NCBI RefSeq assembly: GCF_000633635.1
Contig: NZ_AYPQ01000007.1
Location: 50 to 64,049 of the forward strand
DNA length: 64,000 bases
Direction: 5' to 3'
Origin: Enterococcus crotali
GTDB taxonomy: Bacteria; Bacillota; Bacilli; Lactobacillales; Enterococcaceae
Positions within the stretch are counted from its first letter, which is position 1; each line of letters opens with the position of its first letter. Positions 15,435 to 27,253 of the stretch are shown one piece after another. A model generated the notes under the pieces. It ran no database searches, was not told the DNA's origin, and saw only the letters and a program-made list of their open reading frames with translations. The translations under genes were made by a program, and so were the position numbers.

Positions 15435-17312
15435 ATGTCACTGCACTTATCAAAACGAGAAATAAAAATCTTGTTATTGCTTTTAGATTTAGAAGAAAGT
15501 GTTACTACAAAAGAATTGGCAGAAACGTTTCAAGTCAGCGTAAGAACGATCAAATATGATTTGGAGAATGTTCGTGATTGGTTTAAAGAACAGAATGTTT
15601 TACTGCAGACGCGCCGTAATAAAGGTATTTGGCTGGAACTACCTGATTCAGAACGATTGACCTTGAAAAATGAAATTATCGAGGTGGAGCGCTTTGAAAC
15701 CTATCCTGATCAGGAGTTACGAGTAAATCAATTGATTTTCCGTTTATTGCTGGCACCTGATTGTTTAACTTCTCAGGAGTTGGCAGATGAAATCCAAGTT
15801 AGCAGAAATACAATTGTCAGTGATTTAGATCGTGTACAAGAGTTGATCCAGACGTATGGTCTTGTACTGAACAGGCAAAGTCGTCAAGGATTTTCAATCA
15901 TAGGAGAAGAAAGTAAAATCCGCTTGTTGATGGAATACATCACACAAAAAGAAATAACAGAGTATGATATTTATCAAATTATGAGCTATTTTGTTCAATC
16001 TGGGCAACAGAAAAAAATGCAGGAAGTTCATGTTGGCGTCAATACGATCTTTCAAAAAATTTATCAAGTTGCGTTAAAAGAAATGACAAACCTTTTAGAT
16101 CCTTCTTTATTTGATCAGTTTAATTATGCAGAAATTCTGTCGATCACATTACGAGTAGCGATCGCAACTTCTAGAATGCAGCTACACCATACTGTTGGTG
16201 GTTATAAAATGTTGACGAATCAAAATGTACTCCAGCAAAAACAAGAATTGCCCTTTCTATTGATGAAAAAGGTTTTCGACTTTTATGAGTTGCCACTTTT
16301 AGCAGATGAGTATTTCTATATTTATAGTGATGTGTTTGTAGCCAATAATCAGCAGGATATTGTTAGTTTGACTGAAGAGCTGATCAAGGACGTGTCAGAA
16401 GAACTCAAGTTTCCTTTTTACCGTGATCGGCAATTGTTTACCAATCTTTTTGCTCATTTATCTTTGCGATTAACAAAGAAACATCTTTTTATAAATGAAT
16501 ATAATCCGTTTGTTGATGACATCAAGGCCAAGTACCCACAATTATTTTCTGCAATCCAACTTGCTAGTCAAAGCGACATTGTAGGTTCGGCATTGTTGAT
16601 TAACGATTCATTTATTGCTTATATTGCGCTGCACTTTTTAGTGGCTTACGAAAAAAATCAGCATGAAGTCAATGTAGTTCGGATCGTTTATGTATGTTCA
16701 ACAGGGTTGGGTGTAACCAGCCTGATTGAACAGAAAATTCTAGAGGAAGTCGCTAATGTTGAGATTGCAGGTTTTGCTTCTGTTTTAAATGCGGTGGATA
16801 CAATAGAGGAAAAGAATCCAGATTTGGTCTTAAGTATTTTTCCAATTGAAATCGTAAATCGACCGTTCGTAAAAGTGAATCCATTACCAACGGAATCTGA
16901 TATTCATAGCATCCAAGAAGAAGTCAATAAAATTTTGACACATGCAAAAACTGGCAAGGGACCACGTTTGATCCCACGTCAGCAAATTAAAGAAAAACAA
17001 GGAATCGAAGTGGAAAGCCGAGATATTCTCGTACGAGCTTATGTGATTTATGAAGAATTGCTAAAGGCATTTGCCGAAAAATTGACACAAGAATATAAAG
17101 AAGCATTTTTGCTTCATGTGATGTTGATGGTCCATCGGATCACGTTTGATAGTCAATACGAAAATGAGGGAAATGTAGTCAAAGAAACCTTGTTGGCACA
17201 GCAAGAATTAGTGGAACAAATTGAACGGATTTTTGCTAAAAATGATTTAATGGTTAATCAAGCAGAAATTACTGCTTTATTGAATTATATAAGAGAGGAG
17301 GAGCACGCATGA
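15435..17312 (+). CDS. PRD-containing transcriptional regulator (MtlR/LicR type)
   Basis: The 625-residue regulator has an N-terminal HTH (KREIKILLLLLDLEESVTTK), a second HTH with an Mga-like segment (about 80-140) and PRD-type helical domains (about 190-400). A PTS EIIB-like domain follows with Cys421 in VYVCSTGLGVTS, then a C-terminal PRD-like segment with LLHVMLMVHR. Such proteins activate catabolic operons and are controlled by PTS phosphorylation of PRD histidines and the EIIB-like cysteine. It corresponds to the regulator heading the EF_0829-EF_0839 type operon. A start at 15435 fits the HTH boundary although the ribosome site is weak. It overlaps the next gene (ATGA). Confidence 0.9.
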   Translation: MSLHLSKREIKILLLLLDLEESVTTKELAETFQVSVRTIKYDLENVRDWFKEQNVLLQTRRNKGIWLELPDSERLTLKNEIIEVERFETYPDQELRVNQLIFRLLLAPDCLTSQELADEIQVSRNTIVSDLDRVQELIQTYGLVLNRQSRQGFSIIGEESKIRLLMEYITQKEITEYDIYQIMSYFVQSGQQKKMQEVHVGVNTIFQKIYQVALKEMTNLLDPSLFDQFNYAEILSITLRVAIATSRMQLHHTVGGYKMLTNQNVLQQKQELPFLLMKKVFDFYELPLLADEYFYIYSDVFVANNQQDIVSLTEELIKDVSEELKFPFYRDRQLFTNLFAHLSLRLTKKHLFINEYNPFVDDIKAKYPQLFSAIQLASQSDIVGSALLINDSFIAYIALHFLVAYEKNQHEVNVVRIVYVCSTGLGVTSLIEQKILEEVANVEIAGFASVLNAVDTIEEKNPDLVLSIFPIEIVNRPFVKVNPLPTESDIHSIQEEVNKILTHAKTGKGPRLIPRQQIKEKQGIEVESRDILVRAYVIYEELLKAFAEKLTQEYKEAFLLHVMLMVHRITFDSQYENEGNVVKETLLAQQELVEQIERIFAKNDLMVNQAEITALLNYIREEEHA

Positions 17313-17647
17313 AGTTGAATGACGATGCTCAAAAAATCATTGATGAAAGTTCAAATCAAGTTGAGTTGGAAGCATCACTGGAAAAAATCAGCACATTGTT
17401 AGTAGAACAGATGATTCAACCGACTGAGTTGCAATGGACGATTTTGATCAATCATGTCAATGAAATGATCAAACGCTCAATTGCTGGAGAAAAAATGTCA
17501 GGTGTTGATCCAATAATGTTTGAAGAAGTGTCTAAAGAGGCCTTAACAATTGCGGATCAAGTGGTTCAGCATATTGGTAATTTGCCGCAAGATGAAATGT
17601 ATGTATTATCGATTCATTTTGAAGCGGCAAGACAAAACGAAGAATAA
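17309..17647 (+). CDS. Stand-alone PRD domain protein (EF_0829/AHA_3910 family)
   Basis: The 112-residue protein is a single PRD-like helical domain with candidate phosphorylatable histidines His49 (LINHVNEM) and one near residue 102 (LSIHFEAA). It has no DNA-binding domain. The start overlaps the stop of the large PRD regulator, after GGAGGAG, so the two are probably translated together. It may titrate or modulate the large regulator, or carry a phosphoryl group between PTS components (inference). From memory, TIGRFAMs describes this family as linked to the SFCGS/DUF4310-4312 genes that follow here. Confidence 0.82.
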   Translation: MKLNDDAQKIIDESSNQVELEASLEKISTLLVEQMIQPTELQWTILINHVNEMIKRSIAGEKMSGVDPIMFEEVSKEALTIADQVVQHIGNLPQDEMYVLSIHFEAARQNEE

Positions 17648-17690
17648 GCGAGAACAGCTAAATGAGCCTGTTCAGCTTTAAAAATTGGAG
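17646..17690 (+). repeat. Partial copy (3' end) of the dispersed intergenic repeat
   Basis: TGAGCCTGTTCAGCTTTAAA followed by AATTGGAGG matches the end of the full copies at 18062 and 29155. It also forms a small hairpin GAACAG/CTGTTC. The repeat ends directly at the ribosome binding site of the SFCGS gene. Confidence 0.5.
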
Positions 17691-17695
17691 GAATT

Positions 17696-18052
17696 ATGAT
17701 GATAACAGTAGTAATCGCAGATCGTTTAGGAAAAGGACAAAATGTAGCAAAAGGAGTAGAAGCAGCGGGCGGCAAGGCTGTCGTTGTACCGGGAATGGGA
17801 GCAGATATGCGTTTAGGTGATGTGATGCAGCAAGAAAACGCAGACTTAGGCATTTCATTTTGTGGAAGTGGTGGAGCTGGGGCTTTAACAGCAGCAACAA
17901 AATATGGCTATCCAGAACGTCATGGTATGCGTTCGATCGATGAAGGAGTGACCGCTATCAATGATGGTAAAACAGTTTTAGGATTTGGGTTTATGGATCA
18001 AGAGGAACTAGGTAAGCGTATTGTTGAAGCGTATATGAAAAAGAACGGCTAA
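17696..18052 (+). CDS. SFCGS-family glycine-rich protein (EF_0830/AHA_3911 family)
   Basis: The 118-residue soluble protein has the diagnostic SFCGS motif at residues 54-58 (Cys56), followed by GGAGALTAATKYGYPERHGMR. It has an alternating beta-alpha pattern (MITVVIADRLGKGQN, KAVVVPGMGAD). The function is unknown. The small size, single conserved Cys in a glycine-rich loop, and position before DUF4312 and two multi-membrane proteins recall a PTS EIIB subunit, but there is no proof of phosphotransfer. GGAGGAATT precedes ATGATG; the second ATG (17699) is an alternative start. Confidence 0.88.
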   Translation: MMITVVIADRLGKGQNVAKGVEAAGGKAVVVPGMGADMRLGDVMQQENADLGISFCGSGGAGALTAATKYGYPERHGMRSIDEGVTAINDGKTVLGFGFMDQEELGKRIVEAYMKKNG

Positions 18053-18061
18053 TCATTGGAA

Positions 18062-18213
18062 CTAGCTAGCTTTATAAGACTAGCACTACGCACTTAGGTG
18101 CTGGTCTTTGGGGAAAAGATAAAACAGGATGAGTTAACAAGTATCTCAATCGTTTTTCTTCTTTTCCAGTCAAAGCGGAATAAGCCTGTTCAGTTTTTTT
18201 AAAATAGGAAGGG
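18062..18213 (+). repeat. Dispersed intergenic repeat, full copy
   Basis: This roughly 150-bp element starts CTAGCTAGCTTTATAAGAC and has the shared core GGGGAAAAGATAAAAC, an internal stem (GATGAG...CTCAATC), TTCTTTTCCAGTCAAAG and the end CCTGTTCAGTTTTTTTAAAA. It aligns with copies at 25986-26225 (opposite strand) and 29155-29275. An extra hairpin (CACTACGCACTTAGGTGCTGG region) makes it longer. It fills the whole gap between the SFCGS and DUF4312 genes and ends just before the AGGAAGGGG ribosome site. Confidence 0.65.
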
Positions 18214-18221
18214 GAAAACCA

Positions 18222-18596
18222 ATGGAACAAGTAACCACTAAAAAACGTCAGATCATTCAAGTTGAAGGAACAGGGAAAGAGAAAAATCTGGCTTTTGCGA
18301 ATGCGCTGAATCAAATTCATAATCGAGTATTAAAGGAAAAAGACGATGTGATCGTCCGGATCGAACCGTTGGATATTCAGATCGTAAAGGCTGAACAAGA
18401 AACCTATACTGAACGTTTTTTCTTTTTCTTTTTACCGCGTACGCGTGTGGATTATCGAGTATTGTTAGGCGTCGAAGTAGAAATTACCTTGATCGAGATG
18501 GAAACAATCCCGTTTGTAGAGAAAAAAGTTGCTGATCCAAATGGTCTTCCCATCCCTTTCGGAAAGAAAAAAAGAATGCATAAGGAGGTAAATTAA
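18222..18596 (+). CDS. DUF4312 family protein (EF_0831/AHA_3912 family)
   Basis: The 124-residue protein begins MEQVTTKKRQIIQVEGTGK. It has no signal peptide, but a striking run of five phenylalanines in ERFFFFFLPRTRVDYRVLLG (about residues 65-84), then a beta-rich segment VEVEITLIEME and a basic C-terminus (FGKKKRMHKEVN). The phenylalanine run plus flanking charges could be a membrane-surface anchor or docking loop (inference). The function is unknown. It always neighbours DUF4311 and DUF4310 as far as I know, and here the next start codon follows its stop directly. Confidence 0.87.
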   Translation: MEQVTTKKRQIIQVEGTGKEKNLAFANALNQIHNRVLKEKDDVIVRIEPLDIQIVKAEQETYTERFFFFFLPRTRVDYRVLLGVEVEITLIEMETIPFVEKKVADPNGLPIPFGKKKRMHKEVN

Positions 18597-19379
18597 ATGG
18601 ATGTTTTAGTCGTTTTACTCAAGTCGTTACTGATTGGGGGATTAGTTGGGTTTGCAGCAGGAGCAGGAGCAGCGAGAATGTTTCATGCACCAAGTACACA
18701 AGGGTTAGGTGCTTTTAGAACCTTAGGGGAAATGAATGCTTGTGAAGGAGATGCGGCCAGTCACTTTTCATTTGGATTAGGTTTCTTCTTTAATGCTTGG
18801 GCTTCAACTGTTGGAGCTGGGGCATTTACACAAGATGTGGATCATCGAGTTATTCCCAACTGGGCTGCTGCAGCATTATTAGTAAAAAATAAAAATGTTG
18901 CTGAAACAATGCACAATCCTAAGAAAATGGGGATTTCAGGGGCTATTGTCGGAATGCTGGTCGTGGCTTTCTTGAATACAACAGCGTCCGCCATTCCAGA
19001 GTCATTACAAGTAACCGCAATCGCTGTTTTAGTGCCGGCTGCAAATTTATTAATCAATACAGTAATGCCGGTATTATTTTGGTTGGCGGCGATCGATGCT
19101 GGCAAGCGTTCTGGACTTTGGGCAACAATTTTCGGCGGTCTTGCAACGATGATCATGGGTAATGCTGTTCCCGGTGTTGTTTTAGGGATTTTGATTGGTA
19201 AAGGTGTCGATGAAATCGGTTGGAATAAAGTGACGAAAAGTATGATGGCTGCAATCATTTTATTATTTGTATTCAGTGCCTTTTTCCGTGGTTTCGATTT
19301 ACAAATGATTGAAAGTTTCCGTTTACAAATTCCAGGTTGGCTGCAAAGTATGCATGATGTATTCAGTATTGGTAAATAA
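18597..19379 (+). CDS. DUF4311 family integral membrane protein (EF_0832/AHA_3913 family)
   Basis: The 260-residue hydrophobic protein has about six membrane helices (near 4-26, 60-85, 110-132, 140-170, 180-205 and 215-235). Small-residue-rich stretches such as GGLVGFAAGAGAARMF, with Gly/Ala packing, are usual for transporters. AAGGAGG sits at the end of the preceding gene and the ATG follows its stop with no gap. With DUF4310 it gives a pair of membrane subunits of 260 and 221 residues, similar in size to EIIC/EIID of mannose-type PTS permeases but without recognisable sequence motifs (inference). Confidence 0.87.
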   Translation: MDVLVVLLKSLLIGGLVGFAAGAGAARMFHAPSTQGLGAFRTLGEMNACEGDAASHFSFGLGFFFNAWASTVGAGAFTQDVDHRVIPNWAAAALLVKNKNVAETMHNPKKMGISGAIVGMLVVAFLNTTASAIPESLQVTAIAVLVPAANLLINTVMPVLFWLAAIDAGKRSGLWATIFGGLATMIMGNAVPGVVLGILIGKGVDEIGWNKVTKSMMAAIILLFVFSAFFRGFDLQMIESFRLQIPGWLQSMHDVFSIGK

Positions 19380-19404
19380 TTGAAAAGAAAGCGAGGAAAC
19401 TGCA

Positions 19405-20070
19405 ATGGAAGAAACATTAGACTTACAAGAAAAAAAGAGTTTTTGGTTTGCTGACTGGTCATTTCCAATTTTAGTTGGTTTATTGTCGGCAGGAGTGTTT
19501 GCTGGAACACATATGTATATGGAGCATGGCGTGGGAGCCTTTAATGAAGTAGCAATCGTTGCCATGCTGAAGGCTGGGATGGACGGCGGCTCTTATGGTG
19601 CGGCCGCGGCATTTGGGGCAAGTTTCTTATTTGCTCGTATTTTAGAAGGCTCATTAGTCGGCATTCTAGATATTGGCGGCGCAATCTTAACGGGAGTAGG
19701 GATCGGAGTTCCAGCGATTCTTTTGAGTATGGGGATCTCAGCACCAGTTGAAAACTTCGGCCTTTCTTTATTAACTGGAATGGTTCTTGGGTTGATCATT
19801 GGCGGCATTATCATTATGATTCGTAAATTTACTATTAATCAGTCTAATTCTACATTTGGTGCAGACGTCATGATGGGAGCAGGTAACGCTTCTGGTCGTT
19901 TCTTAGGTCCGTTAATTATTATCAGTGCATGTGGAGCCTCTGCACCAATTGGGATCGGTTCAGTTATCGGTGCCGTGATTTTCTATGTGTGGAAAAAACC
20001 GATTGCTGGTGGTGCGATTTTAGGCGCAATGATCTTTGGTGCAATATTCCCGGTTGATTTACCTAGTTAA
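19405..20070 (+). CDS. DUF4310 family integral membrane protein (EF_0833/AHA_3914 family)
   Basis: The 221-residue protein has a short charged N-terminus (EETLDLQEKKSFWFADWS) and about six membrane helices full of Gly, Ala and Ile (for example GLSLLTGMVLGLIIGGIIIM and SACGASAPIGIGSVIGAVIF). A GAD-MGAGNASGRFLGP loop lies near residues 152-172 and may be functional because it is polar and glycine-rich. It follows DUF4311 by 25 bases. It is the last of the four SFCGS-cluster genes. About 120 bases with a promoter-like sequence follow before the EIIC gene. Confidence 0.87.
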   Translation: MEETLDLQEKKSFWFADWSFPILVGLLSAGVFAGTHMYMEHGVGAFNEVAIVAMLKAGMDGGSYGAAAAFGASFLFARILEGSLVGILDIGGAILTGVGIGVPAILLSMGISAPVENFGLSLLTGMVLGLIIGGIIIMIRKFTINQSNSTFGADVMMGAGNASGRFLGPLIIISACGASAPIGIGSVIGAVIFYVWKKPIAGGAILGAMIFGAIFPVDLPS

Positions 20071-20193: not shown

Positions 20194-21513
20194 ATGAATG
20201 GTTTTGTGCAATGGATGGAAGTAAAATTGATGCCGATTGCCAATAAATTTGGCTCTCAAAGACATATGACAGCGATTAGAAAGGGTCTTATCGCGACGAT
20301 GCCTTTGACAATTGTGGGTGCTTTCTTTACAGTATTTCAGAATATCCCGATCGATGCTTATATGAAATTTATTGAGCCGTATCAAGCGGTGTTGGATATT
20401 CCGTCACGCTATACGATGGGGATTTTAGCTTTATATGCAACGTTTGGGATCGCTTCTTCTTTAGCGACAAGTTATAAGTTGGATTCACTGACTTGCGGGA
20501 TCTTAGCTGTTATGGCATTTTTAGTCACAGCAGCACCGCCTACAAGAGTGTTTGAAGATGTGAAAGATGTGATTGGGGCAGGTCGTTACATCAATTTAGC
20601 AAACATTGGCTCAGCATCACTCTTTGGTGCAATCGTTACGGCGCTTGTTTCTGTAGAAATTTATCGTTTCTTTATTCAAAAAGATATTACGATCAAAATG
20701 CCTGATGGTGTTCCACCTGAAGTGTCTAATTCATTTATCGCATTGATTCCAGGCGCAGTGATTTTATTACTATTTTGGGTGATTCGTCACGTTATTGGCT
20801 TTGATTTAAATGGGTTCTTAAGTACATTATTGATGCCGTTGAAAGATACCTTGGCAGGAAATAGCTTATTTGGCGGACTGCTTACAGTCTTCTTGATTTG
20901 TTTCTTCTGGGTCTTAGGAATTCACGGACCAGCAATCATGGGTCCTGTTATCAGACCGTTTTGGGATATGTCGATTGCAGAAAATACACTTGCCTTTCAA
21001 GAAGGTGCGTCTGTTCATAATTTGCCAAATATTTTTACGGAACAATTTTTACAATGGTTTATCTGGATCGGCGGTGCCGGTACTACTTTAGCTTTAGTCG
21101 TTTTAATGATGTTTTCTAAATCAACATATCTGAAAAGTTTAGGCCGTTTGTCTTTCTTACCAGGATTATTCAATATCAATGAGCCAGTGATTTTTGGTAC
21201 ACCGATCGTAATGAACCCGATTTTAGGGATTCCATTTATCGTGGCACCTTTGATCACGACAACTTTTTCTTATTTCTTAACTGTCACAAATGTGATTCCG
21301 ATGATGGCAGCGCGTTTACCATTTGCCATACCTGCGCCGATTGCGGCTTGGATGAGTACCAACTGGAGTGTTCCGGCAGCGTTATTGGTCTGTGTCAATT
21401 TCGCGATTACTTTGGCGATTTACTACCCGTTCTTCAAAGTATATGAAAAACAACAATTGGACAAAGAAGCAGAAGAATTAGCAGCTGAACAAAAAGCAAA
21501 CGCTGCGGCTTAA
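20194..21513 (+). CDS. PTS EIIC component, lactose/cellobiose family
   Basis: The 439-residue membrane protein resembles CelB-type EIIC: the N-terminal amphipathic MNGFVQWMEVKLMPIANKFG, about ten helices, and the substrate loop region LGIHGPAIMGPVIRPFW (about 250) and FNINEPVIFGTPIVMNP (about 328-345), where the NEP[VI]xFG motif is the family signature. EIIC carries and phosphorylates a disaccharide or glucoside with separate EIIA and EIIB. Neither is encoded in the window, so the partners must come from elsewhere. GGAGG precedes the ATG. The MupG-like gene downstream suggests an amino-sugar conjugate as substrate (inference). Confidence 0.9.
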   Translation: MNGFVQWMEVKLMPIANKFGSQRHMTAIRKGLIATMPLTIVGAFFTVFQNIPIDAYMKFIEPYQAVLDIPSRYTMGILALYATFGIASSLATSYKLDSLTCGILAVMAFLVTAAPPTRVFEDVKDVIGAGRYINLANIGSASLFGAIVTALVSVEIYRFFIQKDITIKMPDGVPPEVSNSFIALIPGAVILLLFWVIRHVIGFDLNGFLSTLLMPLKDTLAGNSLFGGLLTVFLICFFWVLGIHGPAIMGPVIRPFWDMSIAENTLAFQEGASVHNLPNIFTEQFLQWFIWIGGAGTTLALVVLMMFSKSTYLKSLGRLSFLPGLFNINEPVIFGTPIVMNPILGIPFIVAPLITTTFSYFLTVTNVIPMMAARLPFAIPAPIAAWMSTNWSVPAALLVCVNFAITLAIYYPFFKVYEKQQLDKEAEELAAEQKANAAA

Positions 21514-21656: not shown

Positions 21657-21663
21657 TTTGGTG

Positions 21664-21929: not shown

Positions 21930-23018
21930 ATGAAAAGAGCATTAGGTGTATCTGTTTATCCAGATCATAGTGATATAGAAAAAGATAAAGCTTATTTAAA
22001 AAAAGCTAGTGAATGTGGATTTTCACGAATCTTTATGAGTATGCTAGAAGTAACAGAAGGCAAAGAAGTTGTAAAAGAGCGGTTCAAATCATTGATCTCA
22101 TATGCAAAAAGCTTAGGCTATGAAACAATTTTGGATGTAGCACCAAATATTTTTGATGAGTTACAAATTTCATATGATGATTTGACCTTCTTTTATGAAA
22201 CGGGTGCTGATGGAATTCGTTTAGATGTTGGGTTTGATGGCAATAAAGAAGCAAAATTAACGTTTAATCCATTTGATTTAGCAATCGAATTGAACATGAG
22301 TAATGATGTGGCTTATTTGGATAATATTTTAACTTATGAGGCCAATGTTCCGTTTCTTTATGGCTGTCATAATTTTTATCCACAAGAGGGGACGGCACTG
22401 CCGTATGATTTCTTTGAGCGTTGTAGCGTTCGTTTTAAAAAACATGGGATTCGGACAGCTGCTTTCATTAATTCTCAGACAGGCAAGATTGGTCCTTGGG
22501 ACGTGAATGATGGATTGCCGACATTAGAAATGCATCGACATTTACCAGTGGATATCCAAACGAAGCATTTGTTTGCGACAGGTCTGATCGATGATGTGAT
22601 CATTGGAAATGCTTATGCGTCAGATGAAGAATTAGAATTACTAGGGAACTTAAATCGTTATCAATTAGAATTTGCCGTTGAATTTACGAAAAACGCTAGT
22701 GAAGTTGAAAAGGCAATTACATTGACGGAGCAACACTTCCGCCGTGGCGATATCACAGATCAAGTTGTTCGTTCAACTGAAGTTCGTAAGAAGTATAAAG
22801 ATGAAGAGAATCCAGCACATGACAATACACAAGAGTTTCAAATCGGTGATATTGTGATCGGCAATGATTCCTTTGGAAAATACAAAAATGAACTGCAAAT
22901 TGTTTTACAGCCACATTCAGATGCCCGTAAAAATAAAGTGGGCCAAATAACAGAGAAAGAATTGTTGTTGTTGGATTTTGTAAAACCCTGGACGAAATTT
23001 AGATTTAAAGAAAAGTAG
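21930..23018 (+). CDS. MupG-like TIM-barrel protein (DUF871)
   Basis: The 362-residue protein has an N-terminal TIM barrel (about 1-235: LGVSVYPDHSDIEKDKAYL, FSRIFMSMLEV, DGIRLDVGFDG, FLYGCHNFYPQ) and a C-terminal beta domain (about 245-362). This is the DUF871 family, whose S. aureus member MupG is a 6-phospho-N-acetylmuramidase. HNFYPQ and GIRLDVG are conserved blocks. With a PTS EIIC next to it, it probably cleaves an imported phosphorylated sugar conjugate. No murQ etherase or murR regulator is nearby, so the substrate need not be MurNAc-GlcNAc. A ribosome site lies 6-10 bases before the ATG. Confidence 0.88.
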   Translation: MKRALGVSVYPDHSDIEKDKAYLKKASECGFSRIFMSMLEVTEGKEVVKERFKSLISYAKSLGYETILDVAPNIFDELQISYDDLTFFYETGADGIRLDVGFDGNKEAKLTFNPFDLAIELNMSNDVAYLDNILTYEANVPFLYGCHNFYPQEGTALPYDFFERCSVRFKKHGIRTAAFINSQTGKIGPWDVNDGLPTLEMHRHLPVDIQTKHLFATGLIDDVIIGNAYASDEELELLGNLNRYQLEFAVEFTKNASEVEKAITLTEQHFRRGDITDQVVRSTEVRKKYKDEENPAHDNTQEFQIGDIVIGNDSFGKYKNELQIVLQPHSDARKNKVGQITEKELLLLDFVKPWTKFRFKEK

Positions 23019-23026
23019 GGGATAAA

Positions 23027-24136
23027 ATGAGTTACGACTTAATCATAAAAAATGGCAAAACCATTGAAGGTAAACCAATAGAAATAGCGATCAACGCTGG
23101 GAAAATAGCAAAAGTTGCAGATAAAATCGAAGCAGATAGTAAAGAGTTGATTGAACTAGCTGAGGATACCTATGTATCGGCTGGTTGGATTGATGATCAT
23201 GTTCATTGCTTTGAAAAAATGACTTTATACTATGATTTTCCAGATGAAATTGGTGTCAAAAAAGGCGTAACAACAGTAATCGATGCAGGTACGACAGGTG
23301 CTGAAAACATCCATGAATTTTACGACCTAGCAAAACAAGCAAAAACCAACGTCTATGCGTTAGTGAATATTTCAAAATGGGGGATCGTTGAGCAAGACGA
23401 GCTGGCTGATTTAAGTAAGGTGAAAGAAGAGTTAGTTCACAAAGCGTTGACTGAACTACCTGATTTTGTCGTAGGAATCAAAGCGCGGATGAGTAAAACA
23501 GTGATCGGAGACAATGGGATCACTCCATTAACCATGGCTAAGAAAATTCAAAAAGAAAATCATGATTTACCTCTAATGGTACACATTGGTTCTGCGCCTC
23601 CAAAGCTAGATGAAATCCTAGCGCATATGACAAAGGGAGATGTTTTGACTCATTGTTTCAATGGAAAACCTAATGGTATTTTGGATCAATCAACAAATAA
23701 AATTAAAGAGTTTGCTTGGGCCGCATATAACAAAGGCGTTGTATTTGATATTGGTCATGGGACAGATAGCTTTAACTTTGATGTTGCTGAGACAGCTTTA
23801 GCAGAAGGAATGAAAGCAACGTCGATCAGTACAGATATTTATATCCGTAACCGTGAAAAAGGTCCCGTCCATGATTTAGCCACTACCATGGAAAAATTGC
23901 GTGTGGTAGGCTATAAGTGGTCTGAAATTATTGAAAAAGTAACCGCGGCACCTGCTGAAAATTTCCATTTTGAGACAAAAGGTCATTTAAAAGAAGGTTA
24001 CGACGGAGACATCACGATCTTTACGATCCAAGCAGGTCAAAAGACATTGACTGATTCTAACGGATTTACCAGAGAAGCAACAGAATTGATCAAACCTGTA
24101 AAAACCATTATAGGAGGAACAGTTTATGACAATTAG
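23027..24136 (+). CDS. Amidohydrolase/deacetylase family metallohydrolase (EF_0837/AHA_3915 family)
   Basis: The 369-residue protein has the dihydroorotase-like fold. Metal-binding His58 and His60 lie in IDDHVHCF, a likely carbamylated Lys in VGIKARMS, a His in MVHIGSAP and in LTHCFNG, and an Asp/His region DIGHGTDSFN. The C-terminus ends with the usual beta sandwich (GDITIFTI). These enzymes remove N-acyl groups or open cyclic amides. In this operon it probably deacylates an N-acetylated amino-sugar acid before the ammonia lyase acts (inference). It overlaps the DgaE gene by 11 bases, implying coupled translation. Confidence 0.9.
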   Translation: MSYDLIIKNGKTIEGKPIEIAINAGKIAKVADKIEADSKELIELAEDTYVSAGWIDDHVHCFEKMTLYYDFPDEIGVKKGVTTVIDAGTTGAENIHEFYDLAKQAKTNVYALVNISKWGIVEQDELADLSKVKEELVHKALTELPDFVVGIKARMSKTVIGDNGITPLTMAKKIQKENHDLPLMVHIGSAPPKLDEILAHMTKGDVLTHCFNGKPNGILDQSTNKIKEFAWAAYNKGVVFDIGHGTDSFNFDVAETALAEGMKATSISTDIYIRNREKGPVHDLATTMEKLRVVGYKWSEIIEKVTAAPAENFHFETKGHLKEGYDGDITIFTIQAGQKTLTDSNGFTREATELIKPVKTIIGGTVYDN

Positions 24137-25220
24137 TTATGAAAAATTCAATCTAAAAGAAGTCATCAATGCCTCAGGACGGATGACAATTTTAGGTGTT
24201 TCCAAGGTATCAGAAAATGTTTTAGCTGCTCAAAAATTTGGCGGTGAACATTTTTTTGAAATGAGTGAACTAAGTATTCAAACGGGCGCTTATTTAGCAA
24301 AATTATTAAATGTTGAAGATGCTCAAATCGTCTCATCTGCATCGGCTGGAATTGCCCAAAGTGTGGCAGCTTTGATCGGTGAAGGTTCGGTATATCATGC
24401 TTATCATCCGTATACAGATAAGATTAGCAAACGTGAAATCATTTTACCCAAAGGACATAATGTCGATTATGGCACACCAGTGGAAGTCATGGTGGAACAA
24501 GGCGGTGGTCATGTTGTAGAAGCAGGATATGCGAATATGTGCTCACCAGAACATATCGAAATGATGATCACAGACCAAACTGCCGCTATTTTGTACATCA
24601 AGAGTCATCATACGGTTCAAAAAAGTATGTTAAGTGTAGACGAGGCCGCAACTATAGCTCAAAAACACAAGCTACCATTGATTGTTGATGCTGCAGCAGA
24701 GGAAGATCTATTCAAGTACATCGAAGCAGGTGCAGATTTAGTGATTTATAGTGGTGCAAAGGCCATTGAAGGCCCTAGTGCAGGACTTGTGATTGGGAAA
24801 AAAGAGTACATTGAATGGATTCGTCTACAAGGAAAAGGCATTGGTCGTGCCATGAAAATCGGCAAGGACAACATTCTAGGCTTCACCCAAGCTGTAGAAG
24901 ATTATGTGAGAAACGGCAGTGAAGCAGGCGATTCGATGCAAGCACGCTTAGCACCGTTTATTGAACGTTTGAATCAGATCCCAAACATCGAAGCTAAAAT
25001 CGTGCAAGATGGAGCTGGAAGAGATATTTACCGCGCTAGTATCAACGTTAGTGGGAAAAAATCAGCTAAAGAAGTGATCCAAGAACTGAAAGCTGAAAGC
25101 CCCGCGATCTATACGCGTGAATACCAAGCAAACAACGGCATCATCGAATTCGATATCCGTTCTGTCAACGAAGAAGAAATGAATAAAATCGTGATTCGTT
25201 TAACCGAAATCATGAACTAA
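24126..25220 (+). CDS. dgaE: DgaE-family PLP-dependent ammonia lyase
   Basis: The 364-residue protein is of the SelA-like fold type I PLP family. The presumed PLP Lys212 lies in VIYSGAKAIEGPSAG, after a DAAAEED segment that would hold the cofactor Asp. The Salmonella homologue DgaE removes ammonia from D-glucosaminate-6-phosphate to give KDGP. The next gene is KDGP aldolase, which fits. AGGAGG at the end of the previous gene provides the ribosome site. A selenocysteine synthase is an unlikely alternative because the sequence and context match the sugar-acid operon and no selenium genes are nearby. Confidence 0.9.
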   Translation: MTISYEKFNLKEVINASGRMTILGVSKVSENVLAAQKFGGEHFFEMSELSIQTGAYLAKLLNVEDAQIVSSASAGIAQSVAALIGEGSVYHAYHPYTDKISKREIILPKGHNVDYGTPVEVMVEQGGGHVVEAGYANMCSPEHIEMMITDQTAAILYIKSHHTVQKSMLSVDEAATIAQKHKLPLIVDAAAEEDLFKYIEAGADLVIYSGAKAIEGPSAGLVIGKKEYIEWIRLQGKGIGRAMKIGKDNILGFTQAVEDYVRNGSEAGDSMQARLAPFIERLNQIPNIEAKIVQDGAGRDIYRASINVSGKKSAKEVIQELKAESPAIYTREYQANNGIIEFDIRSVNEEEMNKIVIRLTEIMN

Positions 25221-25247: not shown

Positions 25248-25991
25248 ATGACATTAACACCAAATTATTTAGAAGACCGTATTTGCCTAAACGTCTTGGC
25301 CAACTCAGTAGAAAATGCGAAAGACTGTTATGAAGCAGCCGAAGGTCATATCGTTTTAGGTGTTTTATCTAAAAACTACTCAACCGATGAAGCGGCAATC
25401 GAAGATATGAAAAAATATGCAGCAGAAACCAACAATGCGTTATCTGTGGGCTTAGGTGCAGGTGATCCAAATCAAAGTCAAATGGTATCAAGAATTTCAA
25501 AAGAGTTGCAACCTCAACATGTCAACCAAGTTTTTACAGGTGTAGGCACCTCTCGTGCATTACTAGGTCAAGATGAAACGATCGTCAATGGTTTAGTCTC
25601 ACCAACTGGTAAAGTCGGCATCGTCAATATTGCGACAGGTCCGTTAAGCTCACAAACACCAGCAGGCGAAGTGACGATCGAAACAGCCATTCGTTTATTA
25701 CAAGACATGGGCGGCAGCTCGATAAAGTTCTTCCCAATGAAAGGCTTAGCACACATTGAAGAATACAAAGCAGTCGCTGAAGCTTGTGCTAAATATGATT
25801 TTTATCTAGAACCAACTGGCGGTATCGATTTAGAAAACTTTGAAGAAATCGTGCAAATTGCTGTGGATGCAGGCGTTAAAAAGATTATCCCTCATGTGTA
25901 CAGTTCAATCATCGATTCTGAAACAGGCGATACAAGACCAGCAGATGTGAAAACACTACTTGGTATGATGAAAAATACATTGAAAAAATAA
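25248..25991 (+). CDS. dgaF: KDGP aldolase family protein, DagF/DgaF type (EF_0839/AHA_3917 family)
   Basis: The 247-residue protein is the class I aldolase partner of DgaE: it should cleave 2-keto-3-deoxy-6-phosphogluconate to pyruvate and glyceraldehyde-3-phosphate. Visible blocks are YEAAEGHIVLGVLSKNYST, VFTGVGTSRALLGQ and MGGSSIKFFPMKGL, where the Lys in SIKFFPMKG is a likely Schiff-base lysine, then PTGGIDLENFEEIV. AGCAGGAGTG precedes the ATG. It follows DgaE by 27 bases. The tandem 120-bp repeat begins at its stop codon. Confidence 0.9.
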   Translation: MTLTPNYLEDRICLNVLANSVENAKDCYEAAEGHIVLGVLSKNYSTDEAAIEDMKKYAAETNNALSVGLGAGDPNQSQMVSRISKELQPQHVNQVFTGVGTSRALLGQDETIVNGLVSPTGKVGIVNIATGPLSSQTPAGEVTIETAIRLLQDMGGSSIKFFPMKGLAHIEEYKAVAEACAKYDFYLEPTGGIDLENFEEIVQIAVDAGVKKIIPHVYSSIIDSETGDTRPADVKTLLGMMKNTLKK

Positions 25992-26105
25992 AAGCTGAGC
26001 GAACTCGCCCAGAGCTGACAGAAAAATAGGAAAATATGATTAAGGCGCTTTATGCCTTACTCAAGTTTTATCTTTTTTCCGAAGAGATAGTTCGTGAAGC
26101 TAGAC
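25986..26105 (-). repeat. Dispersed intergenic repeat, tandem copy 1
   Basis: This is the first of two directly adjacent 120-bp units. Read on the minus strand it starts TCTAGCTTCACGAACTATC, contains TTCGGAAAAAAGATAAAAC, a hairpin GAGTAAGGC/GCCTTA, ATTTTCCTATTTTTCTGTCA and ends GAGTTCGCTCAGCTTTT. The ends are partly complementary (AGCTGAGCGAACT and AGTTCGTGAAGCT), so the unit folds into a hairpin. It begins inside the aldolase stop region. Confidence 0.8.
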
Positions 26106-26225
26106 AAATAAAAGCTGAGCGAACTCGTCCAGAGCTGACAGAAAAATAGGAAAATATGACTAAGGCGCTTTATGCCTTACTCATGTTTTATCTTTTTTCC
26201 GAAGGGTTAGTTCGTGAAGCTAGAT
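26106..26225 (-). repeat. Dispersed intergenic repeat, tandem copy 2
   Basis: This is the second unit, in register with the first at a period of exactly 120 bases and with only about six differences (for example CGCCCAG/CGTCCAG and GAGAT/GGGTT). Both arms of the hairpin are kept. It ends 14 bases before the KDG kinase start codon. Confidence 0.8.
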
Positions 26226-26239
26226 AATAGGTAGGGATC

Positions 26240-27253
26240 ATGATGAAAATTGCAGCTTTTGGTGAAATAATGATGCGTTTAACGCCACCGGAATATCTAA
26301 TGTTGGAACAAACAAAGGAATTACGGTTAGATTTTACAGGTACAGGTGTAAATATTTTAAGTAATTTAGCTCATTTTGGCTGTCAAACAAGCTTAATCAC
26401 GAATGTGCCGGATAATCGACTAGGCGAAGCTGCCAAAGCAAGCATTCGTCAGTTGGGGATTCAAGATCATTGGATTGGGAACGCTGGGGATCATATCGGC
26501 TCTTATTTCGCTGAAATGGGTTTTGGCCCAAGACCAACACAAGTAACGTACCAAAATCGCCGTAATAGCTCATTTGGTGTGAGTGATGCTAATAGCTATG
26601 ATTTCGATGCATTTTTAGCTGAAACGGATTTAGTGCATATCTGTGGGATTTCATTGAGCTTAACTCAAGAAACACGAGATGCAGCATTTACTTTAGCTAA
26701 AAAAGCACATGCTATGGGAAAAAAAGTTTGCTTTGATTTTAATTTTCGCCCTAGTTTAAATGAAGCTAATGGTGTTTCGTTTATGAAAGAACAATATGAA
26801 AAAATGCTTCCATATTGTGATTTAGTGTTTGGTAGTCAGCGTGATTTAACGGATCTATTAGGAATGGTGCTTGATAGCGCATTGGATTCTTCTAAACAAT
26901 TTGAAGAATTAGTTCATCGCTTTATGAAGCAATACCAAATCGAAGAATTCGCTGGAACGATTCGCCAAGGTGAAGGAGACAAACATTATTTGACGGGTTT
27001 TCTTTTTGATAAGGAAAATAGTGTAAAAGCAGCACCGCGGGAAATCGTTAATTTAGATCGAATCGGTGCAGGAGATGGCTATGCCGCTGGAATATTGCTT
27101 GGTTATAGCGAAGCTTGGTCGCTGCTGGAGACAGTTGAATTTGCCACAGCTAATGGTGTTTTGGCGCATACAATTCAAGGGGATGTGCCGCTTACAACAC
27201 GCAAGCAAGTCAGACATATCATGGAGCAGCCGACAGTTGATTTGATTCGCTAA
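26240..27253 (+). CDS. kdgK: PfkB-family sugar kinase, probable 2-keto-3-deoxygluconate kinase
   Basis: The 337-residue kinase has the PfkB N-terminal substrate region (FGEIMMRLTPPEYLMLEQ; TGTGVNILSNLAHFG) and the C-terminal signature DRIGAGDGYAAGILLG with catalytic Asp279. KDG kinases phosphorylate 2-keto-3-deoxygluconate to KDGP, which feeds the aldolase just upstream. GGTAGGGATC precedes ATGATG. A strong terminator follows, so this is the last gene of the sugar-acid operon, separated from the aldolase only by the two repeat units. Confidence 0.88.
   Translation: MMKIAAFGEIMMRLTPPEYLMLEQTKELRLDFTGTGVNILSNLAHFGCQTSLITNVPDNRLGEAAKASIRQLGIQDHWIGNAGDHIGSYFAEMGFGPRPTQVTYQNRRNSSFGVSDANSYDFDAFLAETDLVHICGISLSLTQETRDAAFTLAKKAHAMGKKVCFDFNFRPSLNEANGVSFMKEQYEKMLPYCDLVFGSQRDLTDLLGMVLDSALDSSKQFEELVHRFMKQYQIEEFAGTIRQGEGDKHYLTGFLFDKENSVKAAPREIVNLDRIGAGDGYAAGILLGYSEAWSLLETVEFATANGVLAHTIQGDVPLTTRKQVRHIMEQPTVDLIR

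Follow-up and report, generated by a model that had tools for sequence, protein, structure and literature searches.

Among the closest described counterparts of the locus considered here is the D-glucosaminate system of Salmonella, in which the substrate enters through the phosphotransferase system (PTS) permease DgaABCD as the 6-phosphate and is then acted upon by an ammonia lyase (PMC9529869). The locus itself, a four-gene module encoding SFCGS, DUF4312, DUF4311 and DUF4310 behind two PRD proteins, lies in a 64,000-nucleotide stretch of Enterococcus crotali (contig NZ_AYPQ01000007.1, positions 50 to 64,049 of the forward strand), which is called the window below and is numbered from its first letter. 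Loci of this module resemble DgaABCDEF, a mannose-family PTS, in having DgaE/DgaF-type downstream enzymes, four putative transport genes and a PTS link as described for that system (PMC9529869). They differ in that no sequence relation of the module proteins to mannose-type EIIC or EIID was found, and in that an amidohydrolase, a stand-alone PRD protein and SFCGS have been added. We know of no counterpart of these three in the Salmonella system. A study of Enterococcus faecalis reports dgaF in all of its urinary isolates, and the terms DUF43 and PRD are absent from its main text (PMC10746210).

From gene content and linkage, invariant residues, natural fusions and co-carriage with Enzyme I and HPr, we infer that PTS-coupled uptake is the best-supported role of the module and that group translocation by way of the stand-alone PRD and SFCGS is its most likely mechanism. 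In its complete form, that of a PTS-coupled importer of an N-acylated amino-sugar acid that takes its phosphate via PRD and SFCGS and yields the 6-phosphate, the proposal is tentative and stands slightly below even probability. DUF4311 and DUF4310 would form the membrane channel for the acid, N-acetyl-D-glucosaminate for example, with SFCGS and DUF4312 as cytoplasmic subunits and the stand-alone PRD as the connection to the PTS. Phosphate would pass from phosphoenolpyruvate to Enzyme I, HPr and the PRD, and would drive uptake, most likely through Cys56 of SFCGS, to give a sugar-acid 6-phosphate; the amidohydrolase would then take off the acyl group, DgaE would eliminate ammonia to leave 2-keto-3-deoxygluconate (KDG) 6-phosphate, and DgaF would split this into pyruvate and glyceraldehyde-3-phosphate. 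It is the addition of an amidohydrolase to Dga-type enzymes that suggests an N-acylated acid. An earlier note on this DNA had proposed an amino-sugar acid uptake system resembling a mannose-type permease; the gene context supports the coupling of uptake to the PTS, and the likeness to the mannose type is not supported, as discussed below.

Open reading frame (ORF) and family searches place the genes, all on the forward strand, in the order that the earlier note had given, and all five small proteins score above their curated TIGR cut-offs (TIGR03577-03580 and TIGR03582). The stand-alone PRD protein, of the EF_0829 family (17309..17647; TIGR03582, 130.7 bits against a cut-off of 69.35), is followed by the 118-residue SFCGS protein, a YhfU/DUF2620 relative (17696..18052; TIGR03577/PF14272), by DUF4312, a soluble protein of 124 residues (18222..18596; TIGR03578/PF14189), and by DUF4311 (18597..19379; TIGR03580/PF14188) and DUF4310 (19405..20070; TIGR03579/PF14187), which are modelled as all-helical membrane proteins and whose previously noted lengths of 260 and 221 residues agree with their ORFs. 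The genes had been described as packed without gaps, which is not quite accurate, 169 bp (18053..18221) separating SFCGS from DUF4312. The large regulator upstream (15435..17312, 625 residues) has the Pfam architecture HTH_11-Mga-PRD; of its former description as PRD/EIIB-like, the PRD part stands and the EIIB-like part (residues 416-473) is weak, at E 0.15.

Relatives of DUF4311 were confirmed in at least 490 stretches of GTDB species genomes, and the best 80 were retained as loci, their genes being labelled by blastp matches to the window proteins; as best matches they are biased to near relatives, and several are clipped by contig ends. Within these 80 loci, DUF4310 is present in all and always adjoins DUF4311, SFCGS is present in 78, DUF4312 in 77, the stand-alone PRD in 75 and the regulator in 71, and the catabolic genes follow closely, with the amidohydrolase in 76, DgaE in 75 and DgaF in 71. 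This association of genes is not chance. Loci that regularly lack the sugar-acid enzymes, which the earlier note had named as evidence that would count against its proposal, did not turn up: all three enzymes are missing from 4/80 loci, one of them (L045) clipped by a contig end, and the genomes of the other three (L022, L031 and L032) carry DgaF elsewhere. In a sample of the window's phylum, DUF4311 exceeded its cut-off in 7 of 398 genomes, six of which are listed with DgaF and the seventh (G384) has it inside its locus; hand-picked module genomes had DgaF in 6/6 cases by genome-wide search, and all 11 distinct module genomes searched genome-wide contain it (one strain very likely having been counted twice). 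DgaF also exists without the module, 6 of the 12 DgaF genomes in the window-phylum sample having given no DUF4311 match. In Leminorella's phylum the count was 12/384, and the 11 loci fetched from it have the same cassette order at a varying distance from the regulator, the twelfth being L042. The closest named DUF4311 proteins among the matches listed are those of Enterococcus caccae, E. ureilyticus and E. moraviensis, at 98% over DUF4311.

The catabolic enzymes of the window comprise the amidohydrolase/deacetylase EF_0837 (23027..24136), a DgaE-family pyridoxal-phosphate ammonia lyase (24126..25220) and DgaF (25248..25991). DgaF scores 394.2 bits against the cut-off of 300 for the 2-dehydro-3-deoxy-phosphogluconate aldolase equivalog (NF047796), and a phosphate must therefore be added somewhere. 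An operon run was taken as the same-strand genes around DUF4311 with gaps below 300 bp, counting ORFs of at least 90 residues or labelled ones, and in 43 cases a run that stops short of the locus ends and is free of EIIC and DUF871 contains SFCGS, DUF4311, DUF4310, the amidohydrolase, DgaE and DgaF. A KDG-type kinase was found in none of these 43. By the ORF filter, 24 consist of labelled genes only; the other 19 contain 30 unlabelled ORFs, among which Pfam recognised no sugar kinase (8 ORFs having no match), the identified ones being a sensor histidine kinase (L033), an Enzyme I (L040), a lactonase (L080), regulators and unrelated genes, together with, in L052, a set of ECF-type transporter genes that precedes the regulator. 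That set is the sole other one among the 30 ORFs, and in 42/43 runs no transporter candidate besides the module was identified. Seven further runs touch a locus end, and by their labelled genes two of them (L060 and L091) carry the KDG-type kinase.

The kinase instead goes with DUF871, being present in 12/15 loci that have DUF871 and in 2/65 that do not, a comparison in which the kinase loci are not independent, the DUF871 loci coming mostly from a single Enterococcus clade. Where DgaF occurs without the module at that place (seven loci, L176-L182), five loci have a PfkB-like and one an FGGY-like kinase, judged from N-terminal sequence. On a simple reading, the substrate comes out of the module already phosphorylated, and the route through EIIC and the MupG-like hydrolase sets free an acid half that carries no phosphate and depends on a kinase. 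In the window genome EIIC, this hydrolase and the sugar kinase would thus make up a second entry route, the substrate of which may be a disaccharide.

A direct association with PTS energising proteins is found on two Bartonella plasmids, where the genes run PRD-SFCGS-DUF4312-DUF4311-DUF4310-amidohydrolase-DgaE-DgaF-regulator-ptsP and the product of ptsP, which lies 64 bp after the regulator, is by Pfam an HPr-Enzyme I fusion. The two plasmids are near copies and therefore count as one event. For the HY761 plasmid, and for a 12-kb section of the HY406 plasmid, the PLSDB gene table, which is incomplete, lists neither an EII nor a sugar kinase. To our knowledge, bartonellae have no sugar PTS. A PTS energiser gene adjoining a transporter is also seen in Caballeronia grimmiae, in which ptsP, again an HPr-Enzyme I fusion, lies beside ptsG; there the neighbour is a cognate EII, whereas the Bartonella ptsP adjoins the SFCGS module with no EII annotated. 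In a distant Firmicute (G159, DUF4311 60% identical), HPr and Enzyme I genes follow DgaF and a HAD phosphatase on the same strand, and Enzyme I is present in 12/12 chosen module genomes, which belong to groups that mostly have a PTS anyway. Apart from these loci and that of E. ratti, tblastn detected neither HPr nor Enzyme I within the operons of the module loci examined. As to the surroundings of the cassette, on the plasmid of Bartonella sp. HY761 (L194) it is flanked on one side by an inverted pair of repA/parA gene blocks and on the other by a type VI secretion cluster, and in G1037 (L224:893-6354) it is convergent to an NPr-rapZ-ptsN-hpf-rpoN cluster, named by eye, that includes the HPr of the nitrogen PTS.

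The residues that would serve in a relay are conserved. Among length-filtered, non-identical sequences, His49 and His103 of the stand-alone PRD are both invariant (73/73 rows), and Cys56 of SFCGS, the conserved cysteine already remarked upon, is invariant in 76/76 rows, the best His column of the same protein being column 76 (52/76). In the 77 rows of DUF4312, neither His nor Cys exceeds 50% in any column. Natural fusions join the PRD to SFCGS (G274, 249 residues) and the regulator to the PRD (Vagococcus allomyrinae, 736 residues). An EIIA_2 domain is present in the regulators of the 5 proteobacterial loci examined and absent from those of the 5 Firmicute loci, so that the system does not always include an EIIA domain.

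A second system of similar pattern is provided by the uncharacterised yhf operon of Escherichia coli, which likewise has a stand-alone PRD, a small Cys protein with a C-x-[ST]-G motif and a polytopic membrane protein, and which differs in having a single membrane protein, different enzymes and no DUF4312 that could be seen. A complete operon of this type (YhfU, YhfT, Php, YhfS, YhfZ, YhfY, YhfX and YhfW) is present in the window genome on another contig (C1; L100:7844-15240). In seven yhf loci, collected via YhfT, the PRD protein YhfY, YhfU and YhfT occur together in 7/7 and consecutively in that order in 5/7. SFCGS aligns with YhfU over 120 columns (hhalign E 9e-6), and the YhfU model exceeds 10 bits on 67/76 SFCGS sequences and on 0/228 shuffled ones; against Pfam PF10941 (DUF2620), SFCGS reaches 15 bits, under the gathering score of 25. 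Judged by this full-length profile similarity, SFCGS is related to the YhfU/DUF2620 superfamily. YhfY matches the EF_0829 model at 1.6e-6, under the cut-off, and the family alignments match at 1.1e-9 (hhalign); for YhfT, no similarity to either DUF4311 or DUF4310 could be detected. That two operons with different enzymes share a PRD, a Cys protein and a membrane protein argues that SFCGS belongs to transport and not to catabolism.

Several points weigh against group translocation by the module. PRDs are known regulatory domains, and we know of no PRD that serves as a phosphocarrier. No EII family was found for the four module proteins in Pfam up to E 1; hhalign of DUF4311 and DUF4310 against mannose-type EIIC and EIID gave E 0.058-0.14, with one of the 16 rows of the EIID profile a stray ORF; and Foldseek of the two AlphaFold membrane models against the PDB gave nothing better than E 1.5, the quality of the models (pLDDT, the predicted local distance difference test, 73.9 and 69.8) being too modest for a verdict on the fold. 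The cysteine of SFCGS sits mid-chain in an RpiB-like motif, where the role of a catalytic base is possible. The Bartonella Enzyme I could serve the PRD regulators alone, and the ptsHI genes of G159 may be general because that genome holds two more Enzyme I-like genes, one of which, at a distance of about 10 kb, adjoins a fructose-type EIIBC; in E. ratti, too, the ptsHI genes beside the module are housekeeping-like, with an Enzyme I 88% identical to that of the window genome. A kinase may lie elsewhere in the genome, and the shared ancestry of most DUF871 loci mentioned above dilutes the kinase comparison. Finally, DgaE of the window, at 358.7 bits against 600, falls short of the glucosaminate-6-phosphate equivalog (NF047797) while scoring above the cut-off of subfamily TIGR01437, and it is for this reason that the exact substrate is left wide.

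A rival reading is a PTS-regulated secondary transporter, in which DUF4311 and DUF4310, gated by SFCGS and DUF4312, use an ion gradient to import the acid, the PRDs only sense the state of the PTS, and a kinase encoded elsewhere, or lax enzyme specificity, accounts for the phosphate. The usual regulatory role of PRDs, the failure to find an EII fold in membrane models of pLDDT 70-74, and the kinases that accompany the same enzymes where the module is absent are all consistent with this reading. It fits less easily with the complete lack of a sugar kinase from the 43 operons without EIIC and DUF871, and with neither Bartonella cassette having one annotated, and we regard it as possible but on the unlikely side.

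A PTS permease of independent evolutionary origin, with the PRD acting as EIIA, SFCGS as EIIB and DUF4311/DUF4310 translocating, and with YhfY/YhfU/YhfT as a second branch, is a more specific and, in our view, unlikely form of PTS coupling. A relation to the mannose-type permeases, which had been suggested from the layout and sizes of the proteins and from their PRD control, is not supported, given that no sequence match was found, that DUF4312 has no conserved His and that SFCGS resembles YhfU; the phosphorylatable, conserved His of mannose-type EIIA and EIIB subunits is found in neither SFCGS nor DUF4312. In lactose-type EIIB proteins the cysteine is near the N-terminus, unlike the mid-chain cysteine of SFCGS.

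On another alternative, SFCGS would be an enzyme, an isomerase or epimerase of the RpiB/LacAB kind that uses Cys56 as its base on the sugar once imported, transport being left to DUF4311 and DUF4310 alone. SFCGS and the RpiB/LacAB isomerases have a G-x-x-x-C-G-[ST]-G motif in common, and their profiles are weakly similar; SFCGS is shorter, however, and has Arg in place of the His after the first Asp of RpiB, which we take to be His10, so the relation is not proven. The best match of PF02502 (RpiB/LacAB), to the SFCGS of G055, has E 7.1e-5 and 23.7 bits, under the gathering score of 24.7. An RpiB model exceeds 10 bits on 21/76 SFCGS sequences and 0/228 shuffled ones, and in the reverse direction an SFCGS model does so on 3/24 RpiB sequences (best 19.5) and 0/72 shuffled RpiB, but also on 1/228 shuffled SFCGS. 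When 34 SFCGS proteins were scanned against Pfam, DUF2620 matched 17 (best E 0.0048) and RpiB/LacAB 15 (best E 0.0024), and the nonsense families Cecropin (14/34, 0.013) and DUF1521 (10/34, 0.0038) were barely worse; because the RpiB matches hardly exceed these, the link is only suggestive. The relative YhfU, moreover, keeps company with different catabolic enzymes and yet again with a membrane protein and a PRD, and the PRD fusion fits a regulatory or relay role, all of which makes the enzyme reading improbable.

Least credible, and in our judgement very improbable, is that the lactose/cellobiose-type EIIC that comes after DUF4310 in the window (20194..21513) is the actual transporter and the module does something else, such as sensing: it is present in 15/80 loci, whereas both EIIC and DUF871 are missing from 64/80, all but one of the 43 operons surveyed above revealed no transporter candidate besides the module, and in G244 the EIIC-DUF871-amidohydrolase-DgaE-DgaF-kinase block and the module are at separate loci.

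Were PTS-coupled group translocation by the module to prove correct, there would be a PTS transporter made of proteins outside the known EII families, and PRDs would act as phosphocarriers in addition to their part in regulation. Five hypothetical families, as widespread as the DUF4311 count implies, and the yhf operon of E. coli would also gain a role that can be tested, with the Bartonella plasmid cassette as a ready natural experiment.

The remaining genes of the window locus, also on the forward strand, are accessory. Between EIIC and the catabolic enzymes are a small ORF starting at 21658 and the MupG/DUF871-like predicted 6-phospho-glycosidase (21930..23018; 15/80 loci), and after DgaF comes a PfkB kinase that is KDG-kinase-like but under the equivalog cut-offs (26240..27253; a KDG-type kinase is present in 14/80 loci). 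A 19-bp inverted repeat is present twice between DgaF and the kinase (26041-26059 and 26161-26179). Two Lactococcus loci, L053 and L062, differ in gene order from the other DUF871 loci, and in the former, from Lactococcus raffinolactis (L053:8442-10001), DUF4311 and DUF4310 are kept, the regulator frame is short, and the PRD, SFCGS and DUF4312 were not found there. Single in-frame stops occur in DUF4311 of G274 (L007, a TAG) and, in Companilactobacillus tucceti, in the gene for the stand-alone PRD (L028:8919-9260). A HAD phosphatase gene lies downstream of DgaF in 5/5 distant Firmicute loci (L106-L110). Two records from a plasmid collection, L196 and L197 (747 kb and 550 kb), have core chromosomal genes flanking the cassette, and their plasmid status is doubtful. 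In some enterobacterial cassettes DgaF and the regulator are separated by a gene for a 7-bladed lactonase (L080:14500-15636; L197:11504-12658), which would fit an aldonic acid substrate.

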